DNA of 64,000 bases from Candidatus Saccharimonas sp. (GTDB lineage: Bacteria; Patescibacteriota; Saccharimonadia; Saccharimonadales; Saccharimonadaceae), in NCBI GenBank assembly GCA_022736555.1, contig DZCW01000001.1, positions 1 through 64,000 on the forward strand, written 5' to 3'. How positions within the stretch are numbered: position 1 is the stretch's first letter; each line of letters begins with the position of its first letter. Of the stretch, positions 22,422 through 30,441 are shown piece after piece. The translations under genes were made by a program, and so were the position numbers. Below the pieces are notes generated by a model that saw only the letters and a program-made list of their open reading frames with translations, was not told where the DNA came from and did not search any database.

Positions 22422-23174
22422 TTGTTTAAGAACTTCAAAGGCCAAATTATTTGGTCAGCAGATGGTGTATTCCTGGAGTATATACTCAAAATGATCGACA
22501 GTGGCAAATTTCCAAAAGATGTTGCCATCAAACTCGACAGGTTATTTCTGACAATCTATGGTCTACAATCCATTACTGAGATTCAAAATCGGGGAGTCCC
22601 TGTCTTTGCTGATGCAAAGATAGTGGAAATACCGTCCAAATCCCTCGAGCTTACAAAGTTGCATCTTCAGTATCAACCTTGGATGCTCAATGCTATGGCC
22701 GACATTTGCAACACAGGCGTTACACCGTCCAGCGACTCAAATCCAGAAAATTACAATCCGGATGTACTAAACGATTTTGCAGGGCTATGTAAAGATGCGG
22801 GAACGCTATCTTGCGCAGTAACGGTTCTTACTAGTAAGACTGATGAACTTGTGAGAAAAGAGTTTGGTAAATCGGCGCTGGATGCAGTTTTGTTTTTGTC
22901 TGAACTTGCAATTGATTGTGGTATCACTGACATCGTATGTTCGCCCATCGAGGCAAAAAGCGTGCGGGTACTTAGTAGTCTGACGGGTATTAACACCCCA
23001 GGCGTTAGATTGCCCGAAAGTAGTGCAGATGATCAAGCTCGCATTATGACTCCTGCTAAAGCACTGGAAAATGGTGCAACGAGACTGGTAACTGGTAGAG
23101 ACCTTAGTCGTGACGGTATGTTCGCAGAGAACTACCTCAAGATTATGGCAAATATTGAAGGGAAGGTGTTCTGA
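22422..23174 (+). CDS. pyrF: orotidine 5'-phosphate decarboxylase
   Basis: A 250-aa TIM-barrel enzyme converting OMP to UMP. It has AIKLDRLFL near residue 35, VFADAKIVEIPSKS near residue 61 (catalytic DxKxxD motif, with Glu in place of the second Asp), and the phosphate-binding TPGVRLPESSADDQARIMTP and GATRLVTGRDLS near the C-terminus. The start is TTG at 22422, supported by GAAAGGATGTG (22405-22415) 6 nt upstream and by lack of an in-frame ATG until residue 24. The stop overlaps the pyrE ATG by 1 nt. Confidence 0.88.
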   Translation: MFKNFKGQIIWSADGVFLEYILKMIDSGKFPKDVAIKLDRLFLTIYGLQSITEIQNRGVPVFADAKIVEIPSKSLELTKLHLQYQPWMLNAMADICNTGVTPSSDSNPENYNPDVLNDFAGLCKDAGTLSCAVTVLTSKTDELVRKEFGKSALDAVLFLSELAIDCGITDIVCSPIEAKSVRVLSSLTGINTPGVRLPESSADDQARIMTPAKALENGATRLVTGRDLSRDGMFAENYLKIMANIEGKVF

Positions 23175-23881
23175 TGAAAGATTCAACATGGCTCGAACAA
23201 CAACTGAATGAATTCAATGCTGTCATTACAAACAGCCACCTCGTATTAACAAGCGGCAAGCATTCTGATGGTTATATTAATCTCAGAGTTCTAGCTGGGC
23301 ACGTTGACGTGTTGTACGAGATAGGTGAAATGATAGCAGCCGCAATCGATGAGCGCGAAAACGAGATCGAGAACGACATTTCTGACGGCGACTATGAAAA
23401 AAATATTGTTATCGTTGGTCCTGAAACACTTGGACGAACACTTGCGGAATTTACCGCTGTTGCGGGAGGTTTTACTAGCTTTGCCTGGTGTGATATGAAG
23501 AAGGATTCGGAAGGTAACGATATTGCAGAATGGAACCCGAAATTGAATTTCGCCGAGATGATCGATGGAGCGCGATGTTATATTGTTGACGATTTGCTGA
23601 CAACAGCAAAAAGCGTGAAATTAGCAAAGCAGCTTATTGAAGCAACTGGTGGAAAAGTCGAAGGTGTTGTTGTTGTGGTCCGGAGATCTCAGGAGGTAAC
23701 TGCAGAAGCTGCAGATGTCCCTTGGCTCTATGCTCTACTTGATGTCGATGGATTCAATACCTGGGCGGCGAATGAGAATGAGCCTTGCGTTCTATGTCAG
23801 GCGCTAGTCCCAATGAAACTGCGGCCTGGACATGGTCACGAGTGGGTCAAAGGCCATCCAGACTATCCAACAACTAGCTGA
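23174..23881 (+). CDS. pyrE: orotate phosphoribosyltransferase
   Basis: A 235-aa type I PRTase adding orotate to PRPP to form OMP. SGKHSDGYINLR near residue 27 is the orotate-site strand of PyrE, VIVGPETLGRTLAEFTA is the pyrophosphate loop, and YIVDDLLTTAKSVKLAKQLI near residue 136 is the PRPP loop. The C-terminus has CVLC and a His-rich tail of unclear role. With pyrF it forms a complete orotate-to-UMP module; codon choice looks less CTA-rich than in neighbouring housekeeping genes. Confidence 0.9.
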   Translation: MKDSTWLEQQLNEFNAVITNSHLVLTSGKHSDGYINLRVLAGHVDVLYEIGEMIAAAIDERENEIENDISDGDYEKNIVIVGPETLGRTLAEFTAVAGGFTSFAWCDMKKDSEGNDIAEWNPKLNFAEMIDGARCYIVDDLLTTAKSVKLAKQLIEATGGKVEGVVVVVRRSQEVTAEAADVPWLYALLDVDGFNTWAANENEPCVLCQALVPMKLRPGHGHEWVKGHPDYPTTS

Positions 23882-23902
23882 CTTCTTTCCAAAATATTAC
23901 AC

Positions 23903-23947
23903 AGCCCCGACCCCACGCATCCAACGTGGATAAGTCGGGGCTTTTTT
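23903..23947 (+). terminator. strong intrinsic terminator after pyrFE
   Basis: A 9-bp GC-rich stem (23903-23911 with 23934-23942) with an inner CCACG/CGTGG helix, followed by a T-run. Confidence 0.92.
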
Positions 23948-24010
23948 AAATGAGACTGCACGGATAACTTATCGGGCTGGTCATACAACGATATGCTAAA
24001 ATTGGGCTAC

Positions 24011-24847
24011 ATGATTTTAAAGATCGCTTCCTGGAATATTGAAACTCGGCTAAGTAATACTAATACGAAACGGCGCAATAACTTGTCTTTGATTATAAAA
24101 ACAATCAAAGAGATCGATGCGGATATTTTAGTTTTACCCGAAGCTCATAGCGAATCTTCGTTAGACTTTTTAAAACCGCGCCAACAATTACTCGATATGG
24201 GGTATAAAGTTTATAATGTACCATACCGAGACGACACTCCATTACGAGCGGATGCGATTGCTCGGCAGGTGTCTCTGGTGCTACTGAGTAAGTTTCCTGT
24301 AGAGCATTTCGATATTGTTAGACTTGGTGATTTTCGCGACGTATTTATAGCGACAGTAGGGCTTGAGCCCGACCAATTTTTCAGAGTTATCGGGTTACAC
24401 CTTGATGATCGTTCTGAAATCACTAGACTAAAACAAGTTACCGACTTAGTCGAAATTGTTAATAGGTCTCGGTTACCAACGGTAGTACCGGGCGATTTCA
24501 ATTCTATGCACGGCGAAGACTTGTGGCCATCAAAGTTTTTACGTAGTCGACTAGCTAGGTTGTTTTCACATATAGTGTTGTCTAGTATTTCACTGAGAGC
24601 TATTGAGATGGCACGTGGTGAAGCTCTAAAGCTCCTAGAAACTAGTACTAATTTAATTGACGCTGACACAAAGCACAGTCCAACAACAACGCCTAAAATG
24701 CTAGGGCGTGAATGGCTGCCTAGTATACGGTTAATCCAAATTGACCATATATTCGTCTCGAAAGACATAAAAGTTAATCAATTTTATGTTGCTTCAGATG
24801 GTGGGGCAGACCATCGTGCGATTGTTGCACGGCTATCCATTAAGTAG
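24011..24847 (+). CDS. endonuclease/exonuclease/phosphatase-family protein
   Basis: A protein of 278 aa from the ATG at 24011. EEP-fold motifs: IASWNIE at the N-terminus (Asn metal site), VLPEAH near residue 40 (catalytic Glu), VPGDFNS near residue 159 (D-x-N) and IDHIFVS plus GGADHRAI at the C-terminus (active-site Asp/His). Members cleave DNA, RNA, phospholipids or phosphoinositides, so the substrate is unknown. No signal peptide. The extended-type -10 TGCTAAAAT (23994-24002) predicts +1 at 24009, so the in-frame ATG at 23993 is rejected. Confidence 0.85.
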   Translation: MILKIASWNIETRLSNTNTKRRNNLSLIIKTIKEIDADILVLPEAHSESSLDFLKPRQQLLDMGYKVYNVPYRDDTPLRADAIARQVSLVLLSKFPVEHFDIVRLGDFRDVFIATVGLEPDQFFRVIGLHLDDRSEITRLKQVTDLVEIVNRSRLPTVVPGDFNSMHGEDLWPSKFLRSRLARLFSHIVLSSISLRAIEMARGEALKLLETSTNLIDADTKHSPTTTPKMLGREWLPSIRLIQIDHIFVSKDIKVNQFYVASDGGADHRAIVARLSIK

Positions 24848-24961
24848 TGATATAGCTTGTAAAAACACATTGTTTTACGGCGATACAATGGGCGTGATCA
24901 CGATAAGATATGACCACCGCAAAATCACGATTATATAAATCAAAAGCTTATTAATTGCTGA

Positions 24962-24990
24962 TTGTTTTAAAAACAGTCTGGTGCTATAGT
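24962..24990 (+). promoter_or_regulatory. promoter of the giant surface protein gene
   Basis: TTGTTT (24962-24967), 17-bp spacer, TATAGT (24985-24990). The leader is about 83 nt, ending with SD AAAGGGAG. The 24848-24961 stretch otherwise holds only a weak hairpin (GTAAAA/TTTTAC near 24861-24880). Confidence 0.65.
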
Positions 24991-25079
24991 GATGAAAAAT
25001 ACAAACACATAAGTTGTTTAAATATTATTATCATAAATCTGTTTAGTCGGTGGTGCGGCTAGCGAAAGGGAGTTTTTGG

Positions 25080-28000
25080 ATGAGGGTATCTACTGGTGGA
25101 TTTTTTAAACGAGTAAATCTATTGGCGATTTCGTTTGTTTTGGCGGTAAGCAGTTTAAGCGCCGTTGTGCCGCAATTCTTTGGTCAGGTGGCACATGCCG
25201 CAGGTACAGTAGAAATCTCGAATATAGCCGATCTGCGTAATGCGGTCGAGCATCAAGCCGATGGTCAAACGTGGACAATTAATGCTGGTAATTACGGTCT
25301 TGACCGTTTTAATGGTATTACCGCTAGTAGTCAGACCGGTTGGTATTTACCGATTACAGCTAGTAACCTTACTATCAACGGTGTTGGCAATCCAACGCTA
25401 TTTGGCCAAGAATATTCAGCTAATGACAACTGGTCAAGCCAGGATCTTATCGCTATCTTTGGCGATAATGTGACTATAAACGGCCTAACCCTAATGCCAA
25501 AAGTTAAGCCGAATAAAACAATTGAGGTACTTGGCGATAGTGCGACTATCAAAAATGTTATCATTACTCCGAATACACTAGTTGATCCGAGTTTATATGA
25601 TAATATTTCGGACCCGACAGATCCAGCGTGGACACAATATGCAAAAACCTGGGGTGGATCGATCTATTATAATAATGCTACGGGCACTCAGACACTTGAT
25701 AATGTATCGATAATTAACGGTGGTGTATCAGTTCACGCTCCAGGCACGACATTTAATACTAATGCCGTGCAGCTTTCGTATACATCAGACATTGATTGGA
25801 TTAATGATTATCGTTTCTATGTTGCCACTCCGACCAGTATTATTAATGGGGCTCCAACCTATACTTATCATGTTAATAGTACGCTCAATAATTTTGACAG
25901 TGTTCTTGCTGCCGTTGGTGATCCCACTACTGTGGTTGGTACTGAAGCAATCTCACTTGATTCAGACATAACTACGACAAAACAAATTACATTAACGAAA
26001 CCATTAATATTAGATGGTAATGGGCATATTATTACCCCGACTTTTACTAAAACTGACAACAGCAATAACTCGGCACTTAGTATCCAGTCTAATGATGTTA
26101 CGGTTAATAACCTTATTGAGAATGGTGTAGGCGGTATAAATCTACATGGTATTAACGTTTATTCGGCAAATAATATTAACCTAAACAATGTCACCGTTAA
26201 AAACAACAGTCGTGATGGGCTAGTAGTAAATGGCTCGAATGTAGTTGTAAGTAACCTTACGACTTCGAGCAATGGCTGGGGCGGTGTGGATGTTGACCAG
26301 GGCAGCGGAGTGACTAACCCCGCGGTTCTCACGATTAATGGGCATAGCACTCAAACCGAATCAGTAGCGGATATATTAGTTGATAACAGCACTAACCCAA
26401 ATGTTACTGTAAACGATCCGGGCAACCAATATAGTTACACTGCTAACGGTATCGTGGGAATATATAAACTCAAACTTGCAGTTCCAACGAGCCTAACACC
26501 TATAAATAACACCTTTACTAATAATCCAGCATTTGTAAATACGTGGTCGAACGTTGCGGATGCAACCGGCTACGAATATCGTACATCTAACACTATGAAT
26601 GGTAATGCTCTTGGCCCTATTATCTATAGTGACAGTAATTTAACGCAACCCGGACGATATAGTATTGATGGCGGTACTGTAACTCGTCAAAATGGAAGTG
26701 CTCCGCAAGGAACTTATTATTGGCAGGTTCGCGCAACCGGTCTTAACGGCAGAGTGAGTGATTGGAGTCAGATTAATAAAGTCGTTGTAGACACGACCGC
26801 ACCGACAACTCCAGTGCCACTAACGCCATTCAATAATGGGTTTGAAATAACTAACGATTTTAACTTCACATGGTCGGGCTCTACTGATAATAGCTCTCCT
26901 GTGACATACGAATTTCAATCAGATAGTAACGGTTCTTTCGCTAATCCATGGGATTCCATTGCTAATGGTAATAGTGAACAGAATAATCTAACGACTCCAC
27001 AGATTCACTCCACAGGAGCACCTGATGGCGTATATTACTGGAGAGTTCGAGCTATAGACGCCGCTGGTAATAAAAGCGCGTGGACTGCCTCGTGGAAAAT
27101 GACAATTGATACGAAAGCACCGGTTGGTTTAGCTAATAGCTATCCAAGCGATGGTACCATCACTACAACGGCTGGTTTAACTAATATTCAATGGATTGGT
27201 GCCACGGATGCTACGAGTAATCCAGTCGTTTATTATTATGAGAGTTCTTTGTCGTCGGCTGTTAACTTGGACGGCTCATTTAAAAATGCAGCATATAAAT
27301 CTGGTGCGTTAGCTGCACTTAAAATACCAACATCTGGAACTCCAGCGGGAACTTATTATTGGCATGTTCGTGCTATTGACAATGTAGGCAATACTACAGC
27401 CTGGACTTCGCCTTGGAAAGTAGTAGTCGATAATACTGCGCCAACCGCTAGTTTTATTTTTCCAACCCCTGGACCAAGTGCGACTGGTTTTCAGGTTCAA
27501 TATAGTGAAGCGGTTAACGCTAGTGATGTTACTAACCCCGCAAATTATTATCTAGAAAACTGGCCAGGTGCCGGTGGTTCTGGGGATTTGATTGGGGATG
27601 CAGCTATAACATACAATGCCGCAAGCCATATCGCTACGGTTAACTTTACAAATGCTGGCTGGTATATATCGGCCGAGCAAAGGTGGAAAATTACTAATAT
27701 CCATGATCTAGCTGGTAATCTAATTACTCCTAATCCAACTAGCAAATACTCGACCGACCTGGCAAGTCCTTTAATTCCAGGTATTCCAACTGCCGCTACA
27801 CCTACTAATAAATCAGCGGTTAATTGGTTATGGACGGCAGCGACCGATCCCGGTGGTGTTAATGCCTCTGGAATTAAGGGTTATTATTATAAACTAACCC
27901 AAGGTGCAAATACTGTACTGGATTGGTCATTTACAACATCGGCTATAGCTACGACTAGCGTTGTTAATGATGGTGTTTATACTTTGCATGTTTATGCAGT

Positions 28001-28937
28001 TGATAATGCTGGAAACATTGGGGCTGAAGTCACTGGTAATGTTACTTATGACAAGACTGCGCCAGTTGTTACAATTACATCACCAAAAGATGGTGATGTT
28101 GTACACGGCAAGATCGATATTACTGGCACAATAGCAGACGTTAACCCGGATCATTATTATTTAGTAGTTAAGGATTCCCATAATACTGTGGTTGCGGGTC
28201 CCGGAACTGTTTATGGGACATCTGTCAGTGATTGGAATTGGGATACTACGAAATTAGCTGATGGTTTATATACTATCGATCTAGAAGCTCGTGACGCAGC
28301 TAATAACAAAGATAGCAATTCTGCTAAAGTGATTACCGTGACTGTCGATAATAATTCTCCTGTAGTAACAATCAATGGGTATGGTCAGGACGGAAAATCG
28401 ATCAAGCCGAGTGTTGACGTGGTGGATCAGACTTCTGCTAGCGATTTGATCTACTCATGGGCTACATCGGTTCCTAGCTCTGATGTTACGATTTCGGACT
28501 CATCGATTTTAGAGCCAACCTTTACGGTTAATAAGGATGGAACTTATGAGTTTAATTTAACTGTTACTGACTTGGCTGGTAATGCGACTGTTAATAAATT
28601 CTCATTCACATATACAACTCCTGTTGTGGTTATTCCAGCGCCGACAACGCAATTCGTGAATGTAGCTACGACGGGTGGTGCCAATAACACCGAAACCGTT
28701 CCTCTGGTTGATAATGAGCAAGGTGTCCTTGGTGCGCAGACCACTAAAGATACTAGTGACAATAAATCTAATACTTCAGTTAAGGATACCACCTCAGTCT
28801 TAGGTGACGCGGCTTCAAAAGATAAAAACAATTTTTGGGGATTAGCCTGGTATTGGTGGTTGGCAATTCTTGCGCTGGCTGGGATTGTCGGTGGTTGGTT
28901 GATCACCGCAGTGCGCCGTCGAAGTATCGATAAATAA
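25080..28937 (+). CDS. large secreted cell-surface protein, beta-helix plus Ig-like repeats
   Basis: A protein of 1285 aa. It has a Sec signal peptide (FKRVNLLAISFVLAVSS, cut after AHA near residue 40). Residues about 45-470 have the NNVTVNNL/GDNVTINGL pattern of a right-handed parallel beta-helix. Three or more Ig/FN3-like repeats of about 100 aa follow, each ending in YYWxVRAxDxxGN...W...VDTxAP, then further Big-like domains. The C-terminus is a membrane helix (WYWWLAILALAGIVGGWLI) and a basic RRRS tail. Probably an adhesin or host-contact protein; no enzyme residues can be shown. Start 25080 is chosen for SD and signal peptide; an in-frame GTG is at 25050. Confidence 0.85.
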   Translation: MRVSTGGFFKRVNLLAISFVLAVSSLSAVVPQFFGQVAHAAGTVEISNIADLRNAVEHQADGQTWTINAGNYGLDRFNGITASSQTGWYLPITASNLTINGVGNPTLFGQEYSANDNWSSQDLIAIFGDNVTINGLTLMPKVKPNKTIEVLGDSATIKNVIITPNTLVDPSLYDNISDPTDPAWTQYAKTWGGSIYYNNATGTQTLDNVSIINGGVSVHAPGTTFNTNAVQLSYTSDIDWINDYRFYVATPTSIINGAPTYTYHVNSTLNNFDSVLAAVGDPTTVVGTEAISLDSDITTTKQITLTKPLILDGNGHIITPTFTKTDNSNNSALSIQSNDVTVNNLIENGVGGINLHGINVYSANNINLNNVTVKNNSRDGLVVNGSNVVVSNLTTSSNGWGGVDVDQGSGVTNPAVLTINGHSTQTESVADILVDNSTNPNVTVNDPGNQYSYTANGIVGIYKLKLAVPTSLTPINNTFTNNPAFVNTWSNVADATGYEYRTSNTMNGNALGPIIYSDSNLTQPGRYSIDGGTVTRQNGSAPQGTYYWQVRATGLNGRVSDWSQINKVVVDTTAPTTPVPLTPFNNGFEITNDFNFTWSGSTDNSSPVTYEFQSDSNGSFANPWDSIANGNSEQNNLTTPQIHSTGAPDGVYYWRVRAIDAAGNKSAWTASWKMTIDTKAPVGLANSYPSDGTITTTAGLTNIQWIGATDATSNPVVYYYESSLSSAVNLDGSFKNAAYKSGALAALKIPTSGTPAGTYYWHVRAIDNVGNTTAWTSPWKVVVDNTAPTASFIFPTPGPSATGFQVQYSEAVNASDVTNPANYYLENWPGAGGSGDLIGDAAITYNAASHIATVNFTNAGWYISAEQRWKITNIHDLAGNLITPNPTSKYSTDLASPLIPGIPTAATPTNKSAVNWLWTAATDPGGVNASGIKGYYYKLTQGANTVLDWSFTTSAIATTSVVNDGVYTLHVYAVDNAGNIGAEVTGNVTYDKTAPVVTITSPKDGDVVHGKIDITGTIADVNPDHYYLVVKDSHNTVVAGPGTVYGTSVSDWNWDTTKLADGLYTIDLEARDAANNKDSNSAKVITVTVDNNSPVVTINGYGQDGKSIKPSVDVVDQTSASDLIYSWATSVPSSDVTISDSSILEPTFTVNKDGTYEFNLTVTDLAGNATVNKFSFTYTTPVVVIPAPTTQFVNVATTGGANNTETVPLVDNEQGVLGAQTTKDTSDNKSNTSVKDTTSVLGDAASKDKNNFWGLAWYWWLAILALAGIVGGWLITAVRRRSIDK

Positions 28938-28971
28938 AAATCTTAATATTGTAGATATAGTATAGAATTAG

Positions 28972-29007
28972 CGAGCCCTAGGTTGTAATGATCGGGGCTC
29001 ACTTTTA
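28972..29007 (+). terminator. terminator after the surface protein gene
   Basis: Stem GAGCCC/GGGCTC (28972-28977 with 28996-29001), followed by ACTTTTATT. Moderate T-run. Confidence 0.65.
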
Positions 29008-29105
29008 TTATGACCGAATATGGACCATTGGGAAATATTATGTTAAACTGCTGCCAGATCTTTATAAGATGTTCTTCAAAATTCAAAAGAGAGGATGTGA
29101 TCGTA

Positions 29106-29978
29106 GTGTCTGATGAAATTCTGAATAAATCAGAATCGATTATTCGGCAAGCGGCTCGAAAATTTCTTGACAAGATTGATGGCTATGACTTTGAGGACCT
29201 AATGCAAATTGGACGTGTTCTCGTTTGGCAATTAATCAACGAAAAGAATATCAGTAACGACAACTTCGAAAGTTTCTCTGGTTATTTATATAAAGCTTTG
29301 ATCTATTGTTACAATAACGACTATAACAAGTCTAAAGCTAAGAAAAGAATTAGGCTATCTGAAACGACTTCTCTAGACAAGGTAATTGGCTTCGATGATA
29401 ATAGATCACTTCATGAAGTTATACCCGCTAAGGACGACGAAGGCGATATCACTCGCGAAACCCTTGATTCCATAAAGAATGCGGCGATTAAGGGTAGAGA
29501 CCCGAAGGTAATAAAAGGCGTAGTCTATTGTCTGGTTGATTTTTTGGCTATATCACCGGAGAAAGTGCCAACGAAAATAAATTATCATACTTTTGTTAGT
29601 TATGGACTTCAGTATTATCTCTGGATATTTTTCAACAATTCCCCATATCGAGCTCTTCGTTTTGCTTTTCCTAATCTAAATCCGACGGATATGAAAAAAG
29701 TTCCCAACGGATATTGGAATGGCAAAGTGGGGAAACGAAGGGCAATTGCTATCCTAGAGAAATCCCTCATAGAAAGTGGTTACGAGAAAACGGATTACCC
29801 CCTGATAGTGAACGAGAGATTTATTGAGAGTCTCGGGCTAAGTACGCCACACCAAAAGCATTTTTATTCAAGCCCGTATGCTTTCTTAGATGCTGCTTTC
29901 CCTAAGATTTTCAAACCATGGGAAATGCCGCATACGCCAAATGGGTATTTTGGAAAAAATGAAAACCTAGCTAAGTAA
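29106..29978 (+). CDS. sigma-region-2-like protein with C-terminal repeats, cut by an in-frame stop
   Basis: A 290-aa open frame. Residues about 1-100 resemble sigma-70 region 2: IIRQAARKFLDKIDGYDFEDLMQIGRV, then a helix with ALIYCYNNDYNKSKAKKR. No region 4 follows; instead there are about 70-80-aa repeats, each with SSPYxALxxAFPxxxPWxMxxxPNGYW. Two repeats are complete, then TAA at 29976-29978 cuts into a third. The same frame continues to 30413 with the rest of repeat 3 and repeat 4. Start GTG 29106 is chosen because GAGAGGATGTG (29089-29099) lies 6 nt upstream; an ATG at 29010 is less likely. Function unknown. Confidence 0.65.
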   Translation: MSDEILNKSESIIRQAARKFLDKIDGYDFEDLMQIGRVLVWQLINEKNISNDNFESFSGYLYKALIYCYNNDYNKSKAKKRIRLSETTSLDKVIGFDDNRSLHEVIPAKDDEGDITRETLDSIKNAAIKGRDPKVIKGVVYCLVDFLAISPEKVPTKINYHTFVSYGLQYYLWIFFNNSPYRALRFAFPNLNPTDMKKVPNGYWNGKVGKRRAIAILEKSLIESGYEKTDYPLIVNERFIESLGLSTPHQKHFYSSPYAFLDAAFPKIFKPWEMPHTPNGYFGKNENLAK

Positions 29979-30413
29979 GCTGTGCGGTGGCTAGTGGAAG
30001 AAAAATTAGCAATTCCTTTGTCGGATATGGGTGAAAAAGAAGTCTGGCGTCAAGAGATTAGTAAAAAGATTACCAAAAAGGAGATGGAGGATCACGGGTT
30101 ACGGGGCTTGATGTCGACATATGGCAACTGTCCGGAACCTTTAATGAGACTCGCTTATCCTGGTAAGTTCCAGCCCTGGGATTTCAGACATGGCACTAAA
30201 TGGCAAGGTGATGCGGGTCTTGAACTTGCAGCTAAAGCGACGAGGTGGGTTATTGAAGAATACGCAGGCCTGACACCGATTTCTGCGGGAATCGGATATA
30301 GATTTTTTATAGAAAATGGTCTGCGCGGAATGATAACTTCGAAAAGCCTTGGTTTTAATTCCTCTCCGAGAGCCGCTCTCAAGAATGCTTATCCTGATCT
30401 TTTAATACCTTAA
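29979..30413 (+). pseudogene. in-frame continuation of the repeat protein after the TAA
   Basis: Same reading frame as the preceding gene, directly after its TAA. AVRWLVEEKLAIPL completes the repeat begun by GYFGKNENLAK before the stop, and LAAKATRWVIEEYAGLTP starts the next. Repeat hallmarks AYPGKFQPWDF and SSPRAALKNAYPDL are present. A GTG at 29982 could restart translation, but no SD precedes it. Best read as the 3' part of one 435-codon gene broken by a nonsense mutation, or a recoded stop. Confidence 0.6.
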
Positions 30414-30441
30414 TGCAACTTGCATTGAGGTATTTTCTTTT
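30404..30441 (+). terminator. terminator overlapping the repeat-gene stop codon
   Basis: AATACCT...AGGTATT (30404-30410 with 30428-30434), with an inner TGCA/TGCA pairing, followed by TTCTTTTTT. The stop TAA (30411-30413) is inside the stem-loop. Confidence 0.85.

Follow-up and report, generated by a model that had tools for sequence, protein, structure and literature searches.

DUF4046 (PF13255) is a repeat family with no function assigned in Pfam, and a literature search found no paper naming it. Its members in Bacillota (Priestia, Paenibacillus, Alicyclobacillus) are often encoded on plasmids, several of them near spore-germination genes; among the plasmid loci, such genes lie near DUF4046-type genes in four of four (L003, L004 and L005 from Priestia, L002 from Alicyclobacillus). 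The Bacillota repeat is built from a long helix with the pattern A-x-RWLxEE, short helices, the stretch SPYxALxxAYPxxFKPWE and a PxGYW ending. The second system of relevance is the sigma-70 family, where region 2 of ECF or SigB-SigF type factors displays a three-helix pattern with a D/E-L-x-Q motif, and region 4 serves in -35 recognition. Here we describe a gene from Candidatus Saccharimonas sp. that combines a sigma-region-2-like domain with an array of DUF4046-type repeats and is interrupted by an in-frame stop codon.

The gene lies within a 64,000-nucleotide stretch of DNA (the window), which was previously interpreted from its letters and open reading frames (the sequence-only reading). 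That reading had placed a single TAA inside an otherwise open frame, and translation of 29106-30413 confirmed it: 290 residues are followed by TAA at 29976-29978, the only internal stop across the frame, then by 144 residues and a final TAA at 30411-30413. The start codon is GTG 29106, with a Shine-Dalgarno-like AGAGAGG upstream, and GTG 29097 is an in-frame alternative. The features of the locus are collected in Table 1.

Table 1. Features of the interrupted DUF4046-type repeat gene and its surroundings (window coordinates).
Feature	Position	Strand	Description	Basis
Variable slot, zincin to CAP	22422-30413		pyrF and pyrE (names assigned by eye from translations), endonuclease/phosphatase-family gene, 1295-aa Ig-like protein, this gene; rplU beyond CAP	
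Sigma-70 region-2-like N-terminal domain	29106-29345	+	residues 1-80	PF04542, TIGR02937, three-helix prediction
Poorly ordered linker	29346-29489	+	residues 81-128; little conserved	pLDDT <50 at 74-110
DUF4046-like unit 1	29490-29729	+	residues 129-208; C-terminal end VPNGYWNG	DUF4046 alignment, tblastn
DUF4046-like unit 2	29730-29960	+	residues 209-285; ...YSSPYAFLDAAFPKIFKPWE...PNGYF	tblastn, alignment, pLDDT ~90
DUF4046-like unit 3	29961-30206	+	residues 286-367; TAA inside its first helix	tblastn, alignment, model
Premature in-frame stop TAA	29976-29978	+	codon position 291, within predicted helix 286-300	translation, alignment, model
Post-stop frame	29982-30413	+	GTG 29982, 3 nt past TAA, conceivable restart; no good Shine-Dalgarno	
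DUF4046-like unit 4	30207-30410	+	residues 368-435; ends after ...SSPRAALKNAYP half-unit, like many full-length relatives	
Intrinsic terminator	30404-30434	+	14 bp stem, T-rich tail; overlaps final stop	fold z=-6.6

The four repeat units proposed from the sequence were borne out, and they correspond to a described family, DUF4046, that had gone unrecognised at that stage. Each unit spans about 75-80 aa and is about 25-36% identical to the others, and an alignment with 14 relatives places the four in register. When the part preceding the stop was compared with plasmid records by tblastn, the best match had E 7e-11; the proteins found come from Alicyclobacillus and Priestia, several are annotated as DUF4046, and the four plasmid matches that we fetched all carry PF13255. 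The part following the stop also matches DUF4046 proteins by itself (tblastn, best E 4e-11). Homologues are colinear across the stop site, each in a single frame, and the Bacillota repeats are colinear with units 1-4; in contrast, the examined Bacillota proteins have no sigma-2-like domain, and the window protein has diverged so far that the Pfam model does not report it. Indeed, PF13255 gave no match in the window protein, nor in its genome at E<=1, and because the model itself fails to recognise it we treat the protein as a diverged member of the family on the basis of alignment. An AlphaFold2 model of the frame read through the stop (mean pLDDT 75.6) predicts long helices opening units 2-4 at residues 206-224, 286-300 and 368-386, the second of which holds the stop. 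Searches of the PDB by sequence, and by fold with two models, returned nothing significant; three sigma-H rows among the fold matches had a probability of about 0.1 and were rejected as evidence.

The N-terminal domain is predicted to form helices at residues 3-21, 29-47 and 51-77, with FEDLMQIGRVLVW standing where sigma region 2.2 would be, and it shares the predicted three-helix pattern and the D/E-L-x-Q motif with region 2 of sigma-70 family factors. Sigma-70 region 2 is its best family match, yet it falls under every curated cut-off: E=0.022 against Pfam PF04542, at 15 bits for a cut-off of 24 bits, and E=0.0018 against NCBIfam TIGR02937. A homologue in an archaeal contig (L012, described below) comes closer to the PF04542 cut-off (E=5e-5, 23.4 bits against 24), and the paralogue of that protein matches sigma region 2 with E 0.006. 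The resemblance claimed by the sequence-only reading is thus upheld weakly, and so is some similarity to sigma factors, the lack of which would have spoken against it. Its further claim that repeats stand in place of sigma region 4 agrees with our searches, as region 4 found no match in the window protein by Pfam, NCBIfam or alignment and the remainder of the protein consists of repeats. We call the N-terminus sigma-region-2-like; that the protein is a sigma factor is not established, because region 4 is replaced, the scores lie under the cut-offs and the closest relatives are encoded in an archaeal genome.

These relatives are two tandem, uninterrupted genes with the whole architecture in Candidatus Woesearchaeota CG1_02_57_44 (MNWW01000008.1; L012, 2917-4293 and 4983-6371), where the match to the window protein reaches E 8e-26 over residues 10-435. 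The pair is flanked by genes for RNase J, PCNA and a P-type ATPase, and a profile search of that genome found just these two copies. In an archaeal genome one would not expect an RNA polymerase that depends on sigma factors. Both genes run through four units and end shortly past the same half-unit as the frame in the window, and because of this continuation the full-length form is most simply original and probably ancestral, as judged from these sequences. The combination of a sigma-region-2-like domain with a DUF4046 array is rare, with one instance among the relatives searched and two in the archaeal contig.

We did not find the gene in the other genomes searched from the family (295), order (393), class (393) and phylum (380), which are overlapping samples, so that it is seen in the window genome only; likewise, no homologue appeared in the searched genomes of the same genus, family, order and class, and the genome contigs searched with the window protein alone gave no match. 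Viral contigs returned nothing for the window protein, the archaeal protein or one alignment profile, and a single contig for a second alignment profile. Phage records gave no match and a defence library no meaningful one. In the same phylum but another family, genome G716 encodes a distantly related protein with DUF4046 (L033, 566-1936; Pfam E 8e-9) behind a different N-terminal domain and without the sigma domain. The gene occupies a slot that varies within the genus: at three same-genus loci (L096, L098 and L099) zincin adjoins CAP directly and the slot is empty, while at two others (L095 and L100) matches to the Ig-like protein lie between them. From this variability and the narrow distribution we infer that the DUF4046-repeat gene was probably acquired by transfer and is sporadic. 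A search for flanking repeats marking a mobile element found just short, chance-like ones. At the distal end, the terminator overlaps the final stop, which puts the end of the transcription unit at that of the full-length frame; the C-terminal end coincides with a natural repeat boundary as well as with a terminator.

The segment following the stop has the properties of genuine coding sequence. Its 144-codon frame was open in only 1 of 20,000 dinucleotide shuffles, and the codon signal of the neighbouring genes is positive in this frame only (+0.08 bits/codon), the other five being negative. The residues after the stop, AVRWLVEEKL, correspond to the conserved first helix of the repeat; the sequence-only reading had called this continuation a perfect match, which is too strong for units of such limited mutual identity, although the correspondence itself stands. 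The alanine beside the TAA is invariant in the 15-sequence alignment and the relatives have a sense codon at the stop site. Intact homologues run in frame past this position, and the segment downstream of it is homologous coding sequence. Both whole-architecture homologues lack an in-frame stop, no closer orthologue was found, and no homologue that we found ends at the same stop. Our best reading is therefore a nonsense mutation that leaves a 290-aa product with two repeats, or else a strain variant or consensus error. The mutation can be read as recent because the downstream frame is otherwise undecayed; the intact copies are distant homologues only, none having been found in the searched close relatives. 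Of the options offered from the sequence, a nonsense mutation is well supported by the uninterrupted full-length homologues, the genuine coding sequence past the stop and the absence of signs of recoding machinery, and taken as a whole we consider an acquired, nucleic-acid-binding repeat protein interrupted by such a mutation to be the likely explanation.

An intact downstream frame is, however, equally what a functional two-piece gene would give, which counts against this explanation. In such a gene, termination and reinitiation at GTG 29982 would yield the 290-aa N-terminal part and a 143-aa protein of two repeats, which may act together. The start codon is in the same frame and only 3 nt from the TAA, and DUF4046 proteins with few repeats do exist (L030, for example, has 168 aa). 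Nevertheless, GTG 29982 is not preceded by a convincing Shine-Dalgarno sequence, a restart there would begin within the first helix of unit 3 and no homologue was seen split at this site, so we give two separate proteins a slim chance. Since the frame is otherwise undamaged, one wrong base call would suffice to create the stop, and the gene could really be intact in most cells, the TAA being an artefact of sequencing, assembly or population consensus. This is unlikely for a contig of 253 kb in a nine-contig assembly with an estimated contamination of 0%, in which no other error sign was seen nearby. Finally, the sequence-only reading had raised a recoded stop or a switch, that is, programmed readthrough of the TAA that would yield the full-length protein alongside a short one. 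The intact downstream frame would fit, the extension consisting of two further repeats, but the 16 neighbouring genes use all three stop codons and TAA ends 9 of them, no tRNA with anticodon UUA is among the tRNAs found, and the sequence after the stop shows no RNA structure (z=+0.54). Recoding of the TAA is unlikely for these reasons, and programmed readthrough, with homologues that lack the stop altogether, is highly improbable; a literature search on readthrough found nothing relevant. Genome-wide recoding was rejected on the tRNA set and stop usage.

Coming back to the nonsense mutation, its single codon would stop the ribosome within the helix that opens unit 3, leaving a product made of the N-terminal domain plus two complete repeats, and we infer loss or reduction of function. 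The gene would then be either a pseudogene of recent origin or an allele that is truncated but still works in part, provided that the TAA is neither a strain variant nor an error of the consensus. The protein, with its three-helix sigma-region-2-like domain and four alpha-helical DUF4046-type repeats, may be regarded as cargo specific to its lineage, placed in the variable slot of a small genome whose size and gene content fit the Patescibacteria, probably Saccharimonadia. The intact protein would most likely use its repeat array to bind nucleic acid, and the N-terminal domain may provide a second contact, to DNA or to the polymerase clamp. The proposal of an unusual regulator or RNA/DNA-binding scaffold made by the sequence-only reading holds in one respect, as the two kinds of domain do occur together here and again in the archaeal contig, and its functional part is plausible in view of the viral nuclease-like relatives described below. 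A bolder version would see an unnamed regulator class common to reduced-genome bacteria and an archaeon, with DUF4046 repeats reading DNA sequence in place of sigma region 4 and the sigma-2-like domain making the contact to promoter DNA or to the polymerase clamp; it is speculative and rather unlikely. A literature search on sigma factors in Saccharibacteria found nothing relevant. The stop itself is probably ordinary, and the architecture, a sigma-region-2-like domain joined to a DUF4046 array, is the more interesting part.

DUF4046-type repeats were also seen in other contexts, which provide testable leads. In Riflebacteria and apparent relatives (L008, L009, L010, L013, L014, L017, L018, L020 and L029) a DUF4046-like array is found at the C-terminal end of a PilB/GspE-type ATPase, and how this type II/IV secretion ATPase context would fit with DNA binding is not obvious. 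Heimdallarchaeota MAGs (L016, L021, L022, L023 and L027, the last one partial) encode standalone DUF4046-like repeat proteins of about 256-264 codons. A 146-kb IMG/VR contig combines DUF4046-type repeats with a putative endonuclease domain twice (L034, 4527-5933; L038, 1147-2496). In these viral proteins the repeats lie between N-terminal and C-terminal segments, the N-terminal one being zinc-finger-like in L038 and the C-terminal one showing weak endonuclease similarity (phrog_945, E 0.0009; Phage_endo_I, E 0.017), and no fold match to endonucleases reached E 0.001.

The nuclease context points to a nucleic-acid-recognition repeat. By analogy with phage endonucleases that have DNA-recognition repeats, the DUF4046-type repeats of L034 and L038 precede a nuclease-like domain, and because the viral contig thereby joins them to a putative nuclease, as a nuclease with its recognition array, the repeats may bind DNA. 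The window protein differs from these viral proteins in having no nuclease domain, and the nuclease assignment is itself weak; from sigma-70 family factors it differs in having repeats where region 4 would be and scores under the curated cut-offs. The Woesearchaeota tandem proteins are 20-24% identical to the window protein and differ from it in being uninterrupted and in belonging to an archaeal genome, while they share with it the whole architecture, a similar length and the last half-unit.
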